Below, one piece after another: positions 23,977 to 35,097 of a stretch of 64,000 bases of DNA. The translations under genes were made by a program, and so were the position numbers. Location of the stretch: contig CALKJW010000010.1 of assembly GCA_937995595.1 (NCBI GenBank), positions 1-64,000 on the forward strand, read 5' to 3'. Numbering within the stretch: the stretch's first letter is position 1; each line of letters starts with the position of its first letter. Source of the stretch: an uncultured Phycisphaerales bacterium. Its GTDB lineage: Bacteria; Planctomycetota; Phycisphaerae; Phycisphaerales; UBA1924. The notes under the pieces were generated by a model, which was not told the DNA's origin, ran no database searches, and worked only from the letters and a program-made list of their open reading frames with translations.

Positions 23977-24049
23977 GCCTCCCTAGCTCAGTTGGTAGAG
24001 CAGCTGACTCTTAATCAGCGGGTCGAAGGTTCGAGTCCTTCGGGGGGCA
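23977..24049 (+). tRNA. tRNA-Lys (anticodon CTT)
   Basis: A 73-nt cloverleaf: acceptor GCCTCCC pairs with GGGGGGC (one T-G pair), D-arm AGCTCAGTTGGTAGAGC, anticodon loop CTCTTAA giving CTT, T-arm GGTTCGAGTCC, discriminator A. CCA is not encoded. Its 3' part is the left attachment site of the element that follows, and the gene stays intact after integration. Confidence 0.96.
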
Positions 24050-24052
24050 CTT
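24008..24052 (+). other. Left attachment site (attL), 3' half of tRNA-Lys
   Basis: Forty-five bp from the anticodon loop through the tRNA 3' end are repeated without mismatch at 35053-35097. The flanking bases differ on both sides, which fixes the ends of the identity. Confidence 0.92.
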
Positions 24053-24060
24053 GAAAACCA

Positions 24061-24089
24061 GCCTCTGGCACTTGCCAGAGGCTTTTTTC
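24061..24089 (+). terminator. Strong terminator just inside the left end
   Basis: GCCTCTGGC/GCCAGAGGC with a 4-nt loop (24061-24082), then TTTTTTCTT. It stops the tRNA-Lys transcript on the plus strand from running into the element; the stem could also work on minus-strand transcripts, though they lack a T-run. Confidence 0.8.
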
Positions 24090-24114
24090 TTGGACCGGCT
24101 TCGGGGCGTGTCGG

Positions 24115-24141
24115 ATGGTGGGGCACAACTGGGGCACAAAC
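24115..24141 (+). repeat. Putative integrase arm site, left copy
   Basis: Two tandem copies of TGGGGCACAAC (the second ending AAAC) inside a 27-bp stretch identical to 34887-34913. It starts 62 bp inside the left attachment site. A matching 22-bp inverted copy is at 29763-29784. Confidence 0.6.
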
Positions 24142-24155
24142 CGGACGTTCGGCGC

Positions 24156-25280
24156 TCACTCGTCCGACTCTGCCGCATGGCGGAGGGACAGGAACGCTTC
24201 CTTCAGAGGCTGGTTCACTGCGCTATCCGGCTCGCCAAGCACCAGCGCTTGGTAGGCATCCAGAAACTGGATGCGGAGTCGATGGAACAGGTGGAGGAAG
24301 TGCCGCACGAACCCAACGCAATCGAGAATGGCGATTTCCGTTCCGTTCGTTTCTTCGTACATGGCAGCGGCGTACTCGGCTACCTCGTCTTCGATCATGT
24401 CGGTAGTGATGAAGACGTAGTTGTCGATGCGCGGCTTTCGCTCCACGATTTTCTGAATGGCGCGGTCGATGTCGTCTTGCGTGACGCGCTTCGACTTCAT
24501 TTCGTAGATGGTGCAAACGCGCTCATCGTTCGTCAGGCAGATTTCCACGTCACCACCCGCGCCCGTCTGCTCATCGGCGGCAAGGTGCCCACGAAGAGGC
24601 ATGGCCTTTTCGCCCAAGTGCTTCGCCGCCGCCTGATACGCCGCTGCCACGATCAGCACGGGAAGGCGGCTGCTGTGTTTGCACGCCAAGTGTTGGCGTA
24701 GCAGTGTCACAATCTGCTCGGATGCCAGAGGAAGCGCGTCTTCGCCGTGCTGAAGTGCGGCTACCAGCGTCTTCATTCGTTCCTGTTTCTCATCGCGCAC
24801 CAGCACCAGTATTCGGAGCGTTTCAATCAGCACTTGTTCCGCCGTCACTTTGCCCCGCGCCACATCGTCGAGAAGTTGCAGGGTGTCGCGGTACACCTGT
24901 GGCGGACGCCCAACCAGAATCGTGCCCGTCGTGAGCATGGCATCCTGATTCCGAAGGGCTGGGGTGAGGAACGCTGTCGTGCTATTGCAGGGAAGGCGGT
25001 TGGATGAAATGAACCCGGTCAGGTGCTGTTCGTCGTAGGTCCGTCCAGAGAATGAGTCCTTCCCGCCGATCTCGGTGTAGGGCTTGCGCGGATCGACTTC
25101 GGGTCGGTGTAACTTCGCCAACATGCACGACATCAAGAGGCGCACACCCGCACGATTGCCGATGCAGCGGCACACATAGTCGATACGCCCAAGCACATCT
25201 TTGTGCGTGATCGTGGGCGTCTTTCCAAGTTTCACTGCCTTTGCCAATGCAGCATCGAGCAGTTCGCGGGGTGATGCCAT
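24156..25280 (-). CDS. Probable type II restriction endonuclease
   Basis: A 374-residue protein starting MASPRELLDAALAKA. The C-terminal half has a PD-(D/E)XK-like site: GAGGDVEICLTN, then YEMKSKRV (E-x-K), followed by a helix VTQDDIDRAIQKI. The N-terminal half has conserved-looking blocks DPRKPYTEIG, SGRTYDEQHL and TTAFLTPALRN. I believe it belongs with SacI-like restriction enzymes, but that is from memory. Its ATG shares one base with the stop of the methyltransferase gene (TGATG), a coupled arrangement that fits methylase before nuclease. The recognition site cannot be read from sequence. Confidence 0.68.
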   Translation of the reverse strand: MASPRELLDAALAKAVKLGKTPTITHKDVLGRIDYVCRCIGNRAGVRLLMSCMLAKLHRPEVDPRKPYTEIGGKDSFSGRTYDEQHLTGFISSNRLPCNSTTAFLTPALRNQDAMLTTGTILVGRPPQVYRDTLQLLDDVARGKVTAEQVLIETLRILVLVRDEKQERMKTLVAALQHGEDALPLASEQIVTLLRQHLACKHSSRLPVLIVAAAYQAAAKHLGEKAMPLRGHLAADEQTGAGGDVEICLTNDERVCTIYEMKSKRVTQDDIDRAIQKIVERKPRIDNYVFITTDMIEDEVAEYAAAMYEETNGTEIAILDCVGFVRHFLHLFHRLRIQFLDAYQALVLGEPDSAVNQPLKEAFLSLRHAAESDE

Positions 25281-33104: not shown

Positions 33105-33218
33105 TGGGTGGCCCGAACTGCCGGTGAAGGCGGGGCACGTCTTTCGCGTTCTGGGCGTCCCTCCCAACACTGTGGGGACACCCGCCGAGTGAAAAAACTG
33201 TCCAAGGTTCTACGTCGG

Positions 33219-33246
33219 AATATAGCAGAAGGTTCGGTCGTGTCAA
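33219..33246 (-). promoter_or_regulatory. Near-consensus promoter of the HTH/primase operon
   Basis: Minus strand TTGACA (33241-33246) and TATATT (33219-33224), 16 bp apart. The closest match to the sigma70 consensus in the element, overlapping the 3' end of the preceding gene and driving the HTH and primase-helicase genes about 220 bp downstream. Confidence 0.75.
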
Positions 33247-33557
33247 CCTTTCTTCCGCTTCACCACGATACCTTCGGGAATATCCACGTTATCTTCCATC
33301 CGTTTTCGGACCCACTTCGACAGTTCCCGATACCACGTCGGGCGCTGAGCGTGCCGGATCAATCGTGCGCCGCCTTCCATCGTGCCCAGCGTCGCCAGCA
33401 ACGCGGGCAGGTTGGCCCCAGCGTCGATGGTGACGATCCAGCGGCCCCCGGCTTCGTCGGTGTGCTCGAATCCCGCCCCGGCGTCCGGGCCGTAGTCCAG
33501 ACGCGACAGCGCCGCCTCTGTCGTCCGCTGGCGCGGCGTCTTCCGTCCTGCTCTCAC
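33243..33557 (-). CDS. Small basic protein of unknown function in element
   Basis: A 104-residue protein, very basic at both ends (MRAGRKTPRQRTTEAA and KRKKG), with a middle AGGRWIVTIDAGANLPALLATLGTM. Its start overlaps the integrase stop by 4 bp, so it is probably co-expressed with the integrase. No known motif; the charge suggests nucleic-acid binding. Confidence 0.5.
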   Translation of the reverse strand: MRAGRKTPRQRTTEAALSRLDYGPDAGAGFEHTDEAGGRWIVTIDAGANLPALLATLGTMEGGARLIRHAQRPTWYRELSKWVRKRMEDNVDIPEGIVVKRKKG

Positions 33558-34888
33558 TGGGCACCCCCGAACGCCGCTGCCGTGCGCTCCAGAGACTTGC
33601 GCACCGTCTGTTCCCCGGTCAGGTTCAGGTAGATAGAGGTGGTCGCCACGTTCGCGTGGCCCAACTGCTCCCGCACTTCGGAGATATCCGCGCCGTTGGC
33701 AATCATCGCGCTGCCCAGCGTGCGGCGCATGTCGTGGATGGTGACGGCATCCTTCGGCAACTTGGCGAGCGCCAGCACGGCACGGTGAACCGCCTTCGGT
33801 TCGGTCATGGGCCGGTTCGATTCCTTGCCGCGTCCGGGGAAGACGAAGACGGGGTGGCGCTCCGGGTCAGCGTGGCGGCGCTTCAGCATGGCGAGCGCCG
33901 CGCCGGTCACGGGCACGGTGAAGTCAGCGGCGTTCGTGGTGTTCCCCGTCTTGAACTCGCCAGCGGGAACCGTGATGGTGCCCTTCGACAGGTCAACCCA
34001 CGCCCACCGAAGGCCCAGCCCGTTGGACCGGCGCAAGCCGACGAACTGATTCAGAATGAGGAAGTCAGCCGACGTTCGGCGCACCCGCATTCGGTACGGA
34101 TCATCGGGAATCTTGCCGGGGCGTCCGCCGCCGGTGGCGTATGTCTCACACGCGGCGCGGTAGGCCCGTGCCTGTTCGACGGTCAGTTTGTTCTTCCGGC
34201 GGCGCTCACACTTGAACTTTCGGGTAGCGCGAACCGGATTGACCCCGCCGCCGCGCAGCGCAACCCATTCGGCGAACATGGTGCCCAGCATGGCCCGCAG
34301 TCGGTTCGCTTCGACCCCGCCCGCGCCGTGCTTCGGCTTCGACTTCGCGGCATCCTCCCAGCCCGTCACCACCTCTTCCATCCGAGCGCGCACCCACTGG
34401 GCGTCGATGGATTCCAGCGCGATAGCCGCATGGCGTTCCTTCAGGTGGCGCTTCCAGAGCGCTTCGTAGTTCTTCCGCGTGCGGGCGCGCATTCCGGGAC
34501 GGTTCGCCAGCATCCAATCGTGGGCCTCACCCAGCGTCATGCCTTCGGCACTCTTCCGGGTGGGATCGTCGCCCCGTTCGATACGGCCCAACAGGTTGCG
34601 GGCCGATTCCTTCGCATCGGGAAGGGACATCACGCCCACTTCCCCGATAGTCACCTTCCACGCCCGGCCCGGCTTGCCGGGCTGTCCGGGGGCACGCTTG
34701 CGCACGACGTACCGGCCACCAGCGGGCGACATTCGCACCACCAGCCCCGGAACGTCTTTGACGTGGTAGTCACGACGCCCAGCGCGCGGGCGGGGGAGCG
34801 CCAGCACGTCGGCGTCTTCGGTCAGCGGGCGTTCGTGCTTCGGCTTGCTGCCTGAACGGGCATGGTCGATGGTGGGTTGGGTGTTCAT
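33554..34888 (-). CDS. int: Tyrosine site-specific integrase
   Basis: A 444-residue tyrosine recombinase. Visible are an arm-binding-like N-terminal region, a SAM-like core-binding domain (TLGEAHDWMLANRPGMRARTRKNYEALW) and the catalytic domain with Arg in GLRRSNG (about 283), HDMRR (about 383), the second His in LGHANV and the nucleophile Tyr in SIYLNL (about 418). It should integrate and excise the element at tRNA-Lys. Start ATG 34888 lies inside the right arm-type repeat, so integrase binding could repress its own gene; the upstream in-frame ATG at 34909 would lie in the repeat itself. Confidence 0.93.
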   Translation of the reverse strand: MNTQPTIDHARSGSKPKHERPLTEDADVLALPRPRAGRRDYHVKDVPGLVVRMSPAGGRYVVRKRAPGQPGKPGRAWKVTIGEVGVMSLPDAKESARNLLGRIERGDDPTRKSAEGMTLGEAHDWMLANRPGMRARTRKNYEALWKRHLKERHAAIALESIDAQWVRARMEEVVTGWEDAAKSKPKHGAGGVEANRLRAMLGTMFAEWVALRGGGVNPVRATRKFKCERRRKNKLTVEQARAYRAACETYATGGGRPGKIPDDPYRMRVRRTSADFLILNQFVGLRRSNGLGLRWAWVDLSKGTITVPAGEFKTGNTTNAADFTVPVTGAALAMLKRRHADPERHPVFVFPGRGKESNRPMTEPKAVHRAVLALAKLPKDAVTIHDMRRTLGSAMIANGADISEVREQLGHANVATTSIYLNLTGEQTVRKSLERTAAAFGGAQ

Positions 34889-34913
34889 GGTGGGGCACAA
34901 CTGGGGCACAAAC
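34887..34913 (+). repeat. Putative integrase arm site, right copy
   Basis: Twenty-seven bp identical to 24115-24141, covering the integrase start codon, 139 bp from the right attachment core. Outside it an inverted pair CTCACGTCAC (34913-34922) / GTGACGTGAG (35018-35027) spans the gap to the core. Confidence 0.6.
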
Positions 34914-35052
34914 TCACGTCACGCGGCGTTCCATGACCTACGGATTAGTCACGGCCACTGTTCAAGTATCGCTTGAAAACAGCGGGAAAACGAGGTGTTT
35001 TCGTGAGATATCCGAAGGTGACGTGAGGTGCCGTTACGTTTATGCCGCCCGG

Positions 35053-35097
35053 CTCTTAATCAGCGGGTCGAAGGTTCGAGTCCTTCGGGGGGCACTT
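35053..35097 (+). other. Right attachment site (attR), partial tRNA-Lys copy
   Basis: An exact 45-bp copy of the anticodon loop to 3' end of tRNA-Lys. There is no matching 5' half before it, so it is not a functional tRNA. It marks the chromosome border of the element. Confidence 0.92.

Follow-up and report, generated by a model that had tools for sequence, protein, structure and literature searches.

A family of putative capsid-hijacking phage satellites in Phycisphaerae

Introduction

Among the phage-inducible chromosomal islands (PICIs), the Staphylococcus aureus pathogenicity islands (SaPIs) carry an integrase, a regulator, a primase with its replication origin, a small terminase subunit (TerS) and a capsid remodeller (CpmA/CpmB or Rcm), with no capsid gene. 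Specific attachment sites, a conserved organisation of the replication origin and genes exclusive to the group also mark PICIs. P4-like satellites, near 11.6 kb in P4 itself and marked by Sid, Psu, alpha and related genes, and the PLEs also combine a primase and origin with cargo and a capsid-size factor (Sid and TcaP, respectively), neither factor being known as a homologue of the helper scaffold. Here we describe an element at positions 24,008 to 35,097 of a 64-kb stretch from an uncultured Phycisphaerales bacterium (GenBank assembly GCA_937995595.1, contig CALKJW010000010.1, positions 1 to 64,000; hereafter the window). We judge, at odds of roughly four in five, that this element is a capsid-hijacking phage satellite and a member of a family found in Phycisphaerae.

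PICIs characteristically depend on phage for their induction, interfere with it and are packaged in phage-like particles (PMC6092414), and SaPI CpmB and Rcm resemble the helper scaffold, with which they are thought to compete (PMC12409344). The PICMIs of Vibrionaceae, located next to fis, encode an integrase, a gene overlapping it by 4 nt, an AlpA regulator (PF12728) and a DUF5906 primase; eight copies amount to about 49 kb, and they are described as lacking capsid-remodelling genes (PMC10803314). Capsid-forming PICIs (cfPICIs) and Mulch/Flayer possess their own capsid, portal and large terminase genes, with a scaffold gene in Mulch/Flayer as well, and satellites as a whole are described as common across Pseudomonadota and Bacillota, with some in Actinomycetota too (PMC10690885). 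Further families have been proposed in marine or soil bacteria (PMC11389934). Our partial coverage of the literature yielded no description of planctomycete satellites of the present kind; the family is not matched to a named phage satellite family, and the kind itself, a satellite with TerS and a remodeller, is known.

Results

The element encodes a TerS, a shortened head scaffolding protein and an all-helical protein, o241, alongside an integrase, a helix-turn-helix (HTH) regulator and a primase-helicase (Table 1). Every gene assigned within it lies on one strand, as the initial annotation had it, namely the minus strand, and the tyrosine integrase placed there at one end is recovered by profile searches. 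The scaffolding gene, which that annotation left unnamed, is a key gene of the locus. A prophage-type set of structural genes is lacking: TerS and the scaffold are the only phage structural genes recognised, and Pfam and PHROG scans of the window element found no gene for a capsid, portal, tail or large terminase and none for conjugation, in agreement with the absences reported earlier.

The scaffold differs from its phage counterparts in a consistent way. Satellite scaffolds measure 193-233 aa, lack the N-terminal segment in 16 of 16 cases, have a shorter middle and keep the C-terminal region; of the 14 phage forms in the alignment, 13 run to 267-283 aa and the other (L090) to 228 aa. This alignment holds 14 of 42 phage scaffolds, with starts chosen for several, and the raw open reading frames (ORFs) of all 42 span 228-338 aa. 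For the small-terminase-like gene of the initial annotation, three lines of evidence converge. The AlphaFold model (pLDDT 69.7, pTM 0.45) retrieves the Sf6 gp1 small terminase as its top three PDB rows (Z 8.2-8.3; the next row is at Z 4.5), the best BFVD rows include named small terminases, and one of 12 aligned satellite TerS proteins, that of L016, matches the small terminase family phrog_4044 (2.6e-6; L038 gave no match). Since the model is moderate and the root-mean-square deviation from Sf6 gp1 is high (7.1-8.9 over 114-116 residues), the assignment draws on fold, family and position together. The third protein, o241, returned no family relative or fold match that stood out, its fold matches being no better than those of chance helical bundles, and a scan of IMG/VR found no relative; we regard it as a candidate capsid-size factor. 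The 166-aa protein upstream of o241 was counted with a profile seeded by c12, the profile seeded with the window's own copy having drifted into o241.

The ends of the element are sharply defined. As previously described, exact 45-bp direct repeats lie 11,045 bp apart. The left repeat coincides with the 3' part of tRNA-Lys(ctt) (gene at 23977-24050), the sole tRNA that ARAGORN finds in the window. In a congener (G001; G and L numbers are our labels for genomes and loci), window positions 23913-24053 and 35053-37442 align to L106 16402-16261 and 16306-13881 at 87% and 79% identity, and both alignments overlap in one repeat copy. Because the flanks thus adjoin over a single repeat, the G001 site is empty and the insertion precise. 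GC content in 2-kb windows is 0.59-0.66 inside the element versus 0.67-0.76 in most flanking windows; low GC also occurs in the first 3 kb of the window, outside the element. Just inside the ends lies a second pair of exact repeats, 27 bp long and containing two TGGGGCACAA units; this 10-mer has six copies in the 64 kb, all inside the element. Sub-terminal repeats of the other six elements inserted in the same manner (type A, below) are 10-12 bp long, and random controls reached the observed length in 0 of 200 cases for the window, L038 and L046 and in 6.5-11.5% for the other four. A role as integrase arm sites is accordingly likely for some elements only.

The element belongs to a family. A scaffold search matched 8 of 298 genomes of the class, including the window's own (G000), and a search with an o241 alignment returned 16 loci in 12 of 163 host-family genomes, spread over 12 of 74 genera. 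In the 20-kb regions taken around the 15 loci other than the window, together with the window itself, the core is present in 13 elements: integrase, HTH regulator, TerS, o241 and scaffold occur in all 13 (the TerS gene being split into two ORFs in L040), and the primase profile matches 12. The exception, L016, has a different 765-aa gene at the primase place, which is taken for a primase from its position and family tallies. Gene order from HTH to scaffold is conserved in 13 of 13; eight elements have the integrase at the HTH end and five have it at the opposite end. The remaining three loci (L041, L047, L048) are partial relatives. One of them, L048:10027-13281 in G387, lies near a tRNA-Lys, and its scaffold shares 95% identity with that of the window; the tRNA-Lys site thus seems to be used in another genus too. 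Stand-alone ORFs matching parts of the scaffold, with no other core gene, occur at L014, L017, L018 and L019 (G295, G277) and are possibly remnants; these, the weak L009 and L020 (other core genes lacking) and a weak match in G188 (L008, E 3.5e-4) were left out of the element counts. A phylum-wide o241 search of 392 genomes matched G000 only; with only six candidates scored per genome, it says little on distant relatives.

Twelve elements have both ends, and their lengths fall between 11,045 and 12,150 bp (mean 11,570, standard deviation 355; the three partial loci and L043, which has no identified ends, are excluded). Seven (type A: the window, L016, L038, L039, L040, L044, L046) are each flanked by 44-49-bp exact or near-exact tRNA repeats, the targets being Lys, Asp (four elements), Gly and Ala. 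The other five (type B: L013, L015, L037, L042, L045) each interrupt a host tRNA-Arg(tct) within its anticodon loop. At neither side of a type B junction does ARAGORN find a tRNA, and joining the flanks at the 7-bp core TTAGAAG restores tRNA-Arg(tct) in five of five. Each type B element has a complete tRNA-Arg(tct) adjoining its integrase, and in four hosts (G271, G190, G332, G322) this copy is the only match to a tRNA-Arg(TCT) pattern. The pattern matched nothing in the fifth host, G334, or in G226, where no element was found, and from these two genomes it evidently misses some genes; it matched once each in G280, G001 and G000. The specific attachment sites typical of PICIs are thus present as tRNA sites in seven type A and five type B elements.

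In its front half, the element encodes the regulator, whose HTH_17 match is sub-threshold (score 22.9 versus the Pfam cut-off of 27), and the primase-helicase, followed by the iteron cluster that the initial annotation had reported. The 672-bp gap after the primase holds 9 of the window's 33 ACCRATC motifs, and 2000 first-order Markov resamplings of this gap gave a mean of 0.26 and a maximum of 3. A primase followed by iterons recurs in L044. The 104-aa protein beside the integrase has homologues in four other elements and no family match in Pfam, PHROG and NCBIfam scans. A gene overlaps the integrase by 4 nt in seven of the eight elements with the integrase at the HTH end (window, L016, L038, L039, L043, L044, L046), and in L016 and L046 no homology of this gene to the 104-aa protein was detected.

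Single-protein scans of IMG/VR with the window scaffold or TerS found nothing, and in annotated phages tblastn with the scaffold located four weak places (best E 7e-3). A four-row scaffold alignment recovered 42 phage loci in IMG/VR; 37 have an ORF of at least 250 aa within 400 bp downstream, and 29 of these form one homologous family, of which the only member tested (L069) falls in phrog_247 (major head protein). L090 stands outside that group; its head protein belongs to phrog_283, and its TerS is matched by the satellite TerS profile (8.7e-5), as is, weakly, that of L061 (0.008). In a bin of the same host family, contig G340:C11 (64,182 bp, about 5.5 times as long as the satellites) carries TerS (phrog_4044), TerL, portal, scaffold, major capsid protein (MCP) and a phrog_1829 primase; IMG/VR contig 3300022723_000068 likewise has scaffold, TerS and primase. 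The G340:C11 primase is 64% identical to that of L044 over 685 aa and 44% identical to the window's over 666 aa. TCCGCTTG iterons number ten in G340:C11, seven of them at 63697-63831, and four in L044, where every copy falls at 7840-7886, between the primase and TerS genes; in the other elements copies are scattered if present at all. Judged by the primase identity, the iterons and the gene sets, satellites and phages have parts in common, and L044 and G340:C11 probably share origin recognition. The helpers are likely tailed phages, about 60-64 kb in size, that encode a phrog_4044 TerS, a phrog_206 scaffold and a phrog_247 capsid. The ends of G340:C11 share a 69-bp stretch of 23-bp tandem repeats (loci L103-L105, L119).

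Of the restriction-modification genes that the initial annotation placed at the other end of the element, the D12 methyltransferase is confirmed. The adjoining 379-aa ORF, with no PDB or NCBIfam match, has just a sub-threshold SacI hint (E 0.016), and its candidacy as the restriction enzyme follows from position. Across 58 non-core ORFs of the 13 elements, the set being 57 of 63 ORFs after removal of six short ones, with one added, the cargo includes methyltransferases of the C5 (three members), D12 (two), N6/N4 (two) and Eco57I (one) types, NotI-type endonucleases (two), Vsr (one), HATPase (two) and kinase families; PADLOC tallies are mostly type II methyltransferases among the 25 of 202 families listed, and the cargo of several elements (L013, L039, L040) had no match. 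Restriction-modification genes often travel on islands, and with methyltransferase, endonuclease, ATPase and kinase families aboard, the element could be read as a defence island that moves by its own integrase and by helpers of general transduction or conjugation, the phage genes being passengers. We consider this highly improbable: TerS, o241 and scaffold are kept in 13 of 13 elements while the cargo varies, even between the otherwise 97% identical L013 and L037, and no relaxase or conjugation family appears among the 25 of 26 Pfam families listed for these ORFs. No structural or terminase family appears there either, the 25 of 74 PHROGs listed likewise include none for virion structure, terminase or conjugation, and an MCP profile had no match in 2376 ORFs of the element regions.

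Sequence comparisons between elements speak to mobility. L013 and L037, from different genera, are 97.5% and 96.7% identical over two homologous parts and differ in cargo; the window scaffold region is 94% identical to that of L048, in another genus, with neighbouring host genes at 71%. The ratio of nonsynonymous to synonymous substitution rates (dN/dS) between L013 and L037 is 0.12 for the integrase, 0.16 for c11 and 0.20 for TerS; c12 is unchanged at the amino-acid level, and o241 is unchanged altogether. Between the window and L048, it is 0.16 for both scaffold and o114. These values bear on a decaying prophage, in which TerS and scaffold would be chance survivors after the loss of most structural genes. 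Such an origin would account for the phage type and phage order of these two genes and for the three partial relatives. It is nonetheless very hard to credit given twelve two-ended copies with the same core, at 11.05-12.15 kb, in several tRNA genes and genera; the lack of any other structural family among the Pfam families listed and of any MCP-profile match; the low dN/dS of TerS, integrase and the window/L048 scaffold; and an o241 that was not found in phages. The initial annotation had named two findings that would speak against a satellite, structural phage genes of the same unit and a fixed copy with a mutated integrase. Beyond TerS and scaffold, no such gene was found in the units, and the elements occupy different sites with full-length integrase ORFs.

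Table 1. Features of the window element, with coordinates of the type B elements.
Feature	Position	Strand	Evidence
att repeat, 3' part of tRNA-Lys(ctt)	24008..24052	+	exact 45-bp repeat; ARAGORN; single copy in G001
Sub-terminal repeat, two TGGGGCACAA units, candidate integrase arm site	24115..24141	+	27-bp exact direct repeat with 34887-34913
Cargo, 379-aa ORF, 16-nt overlap with methyltransferase ORF, candidate restriction enzyme	24156..25295	-	RE_SacI E 0.016, sub-threshold
Cargo, D12 adenine DNA methyltransferase	25280..26278	-	PF02086 4.5e-22; phrog_56 4.3e-67
114-aa protein, overlaps scaffold gene	26310..26654	-	homologues in 4/12 other elements and 2 partial loci
Shortened head scaffolding protein	26540..27241	-	phrog_206 7.4e-24; lacks N-terminal segment of phage form; 13/13 elements
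o241, all-helical, candidate capsid-size factor	27238..27963	-	13/13 elements; model pLDDT 90.3
166-aa protein	28206..28706	-	9/13 elements, c12-seeded profile
68-aa conserved protein	28804..29010	-	found in 12/13 elements
Terminase small subunit	28934..29614	-	Sf6 gp1 fold match; BFVD rows; homologue L016 to phrog_4044
Third copy of TGGGGCACAA pair, inverted, upstream of TerS gene	29761..29784	-	24 nt, 96% complementary
Iteron cluster, 9 ACCRATC motifs, candidate replication origin	29906..30279		motif count versus resampling
Primase-helicase ORF, true start may be further in	30287..32848	-	DUF5906 2.6e-20; phrog_1829 7.2e-50
HTH_17 (AlpA/excisionase-like) regulator	32713..32997	-	PF12728 1.1e-4; phrog_66 4.9e-5
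104-aa protein, start overlaps integrase stop by 4 nt; PICMI iolg position	33243..33557	-	coordinates
Tyrosine integrase	33554..34909	-	PF00589 5.8e-20; PF13356 (Arm-DNA-bind_3) 4.9e-8; phrog_1 2.8e-45
Sub-terminal repeat, candidate integrase arm site, overlaps integrase ORF start	34887..34913	+	27-bp exact repeat
Second att repeat	35053..35097	+	exact 45-bp repeat; G001 empty site
Type B element L013	L013:3390-14795
Type B element L015	L015:3466-15137
Type B element L037	L037:4507-15564
Type B element L042	L042:4161-15687
Type B element L045	(read reversed)

Discussion

An integrated element between attachment sites, with integrase and replication genes and no virion genes of its own found, has the general make-up of a satellite. 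The satellite reading of the initial annotation is strengthened here by the 16 loci, the conserved order from HTH to scaffold, the empty site, TerS with a short scaffold and no capsid gene, and the parts shared with phages. In the mechanism that we infer, infection by a helper phage would lead to excision by the integrase and HTH regulator, and the primase would replicate the element from the iterons. Its TerS would steer the helper large terminase towards satellite DNA. The short scaffold, possibly together with o241, would replace the helper scaffold in the helper procapsid, so that helper capsid protein would assemble into small heads with room for about 11-12 kb. SaPI CpmB and Rcm are the closest studied case, by analogy, to the short scaffold.

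Several points weigh against this account. Neither induction nor an excised circle, a particle or a helper infection was observed. The window TerS has no direct family match in the Pfam and PHROG scans. Searches of IMG/VR with the o241 and satellite TerS alignments found no relative, and thus no sign of packaged copies. Cargo and core lengths show no significant compensation (r -0.27, p 0.20), so the uniform size may reflect descent. Between L013 and L037, dN/dS is 0.43 for the primase, 0.69 for the HTH regulator, 0.80 for c14 and 0.95 for the scaffold, with few changes in each. The MCP profile matched once in the 163 family genomes, on G340:C11, and not in G000, and that contig may be a binning error. 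Its primase is 25% identical to that of L043 with no significant match to L038, BLAST finds no significant match for its TerS among the satellite TerS proteins (best E 0.084), and its scaffold shares only about 30% identity with those of satellites; for the last two reasons it need not be the helper of the window element.

A further possibility concerns the packaging step only: the satellite could be packaged as concatemers in full-size helper heads, as in PICMIs, the scaffold having another role. The integrase, the gene overlapping it by 4 nt, HTH_17 and the DUF5906 primase match the PICMI front half (PMC10803314), and the phage contig is some 5.5 satellite lengths long. PICMIs are described as having no capsid-remodelling genes, whereas the scaffold is present here in 13 of 13 elements; nor do concatemers need a uniform unit length. 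We think this version unlikely, noting that it shares the satellite reading and that its odds overlap with those of capsid hijacking.

With PICIs the element shares integrase, regulator, primase and candidate origin, TerS, a scaffold-related candidate remodeller and the absence of a capsid gene. It differs in host phylum and helper lineage, and in that the candidate remodeller can be recognised as a phrog_206 scaffold and is accompanied by o241; general Pfam, PHROG and NCBIfam scans, with no dedicated models run, found no stl, ppi or cpm homologues. Unlike PICMIs, the element is about twice as large, sits in tRNA-Lys and adds TerS, o241 and scaffold, for which a remodelling role is inferred. 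A primase with a candidate origin, a candidate capsid-size factor and cargo recall P4-like satellites and PLEs, no gene of which was recognised in the general Pfam and PHROG scans, where no dedicated model was run. The resemblance to cfPICIs and Mulch/Flayer lies in phage packaging genes and, for Mulch/Flayer, the scaffold; the capsid, portal and large terminase genes of those satellites were not found in the present family, among the families listed or with the MCP profile.

More tentatively, and at somewhat less than even odds, we suggest that this new Planctomycetota satellite family subverts its helper with trimmed parts of the helper lineage (scaffold, TerS, and a primase whose iterons match) together with a helical sizing protein confined to satellites, helper replication proteins possibly acting on satellite origins, and that one branch resists loss because it interrupts the only tRNA-Arg(TCT) gene of its host and brings a replacement. 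A Phycisphaerae family with a phage-type scaffold and TerS, and with one phage-shared origin, would allow a direct test of whether satellites are built from helper parts and of whether head size is set by a short scaffold. For Planctomycetota, a phylum about which little is known, it further indicates a phage lineage and a vehicle for methyltransferase genes and others of defence type.

Two observations lie outside the family. In IMG/VR, L123:9614-15792 and L124:1790-12956 combine matches to the primase and to the TerS, c12 and integrase profiles with a 247-aa ORF, and possibly represent a second satellite family with no scaffold match. The 247-aa protein, at the place of o241, was considered as a shared sizing protein and set aside, no relationship to o241 being detectable (hhalign probability 0.5%). 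The vicinity of L124 includes a tRNA-Leu and, by eye, methyltransferase-like and phage connector-like genes. Within the window, several frames are open across the intergenic region at 20634-21260, where peptide motifs recur from one overlapping ORF to another; by eye it resembles a repeat cluster.

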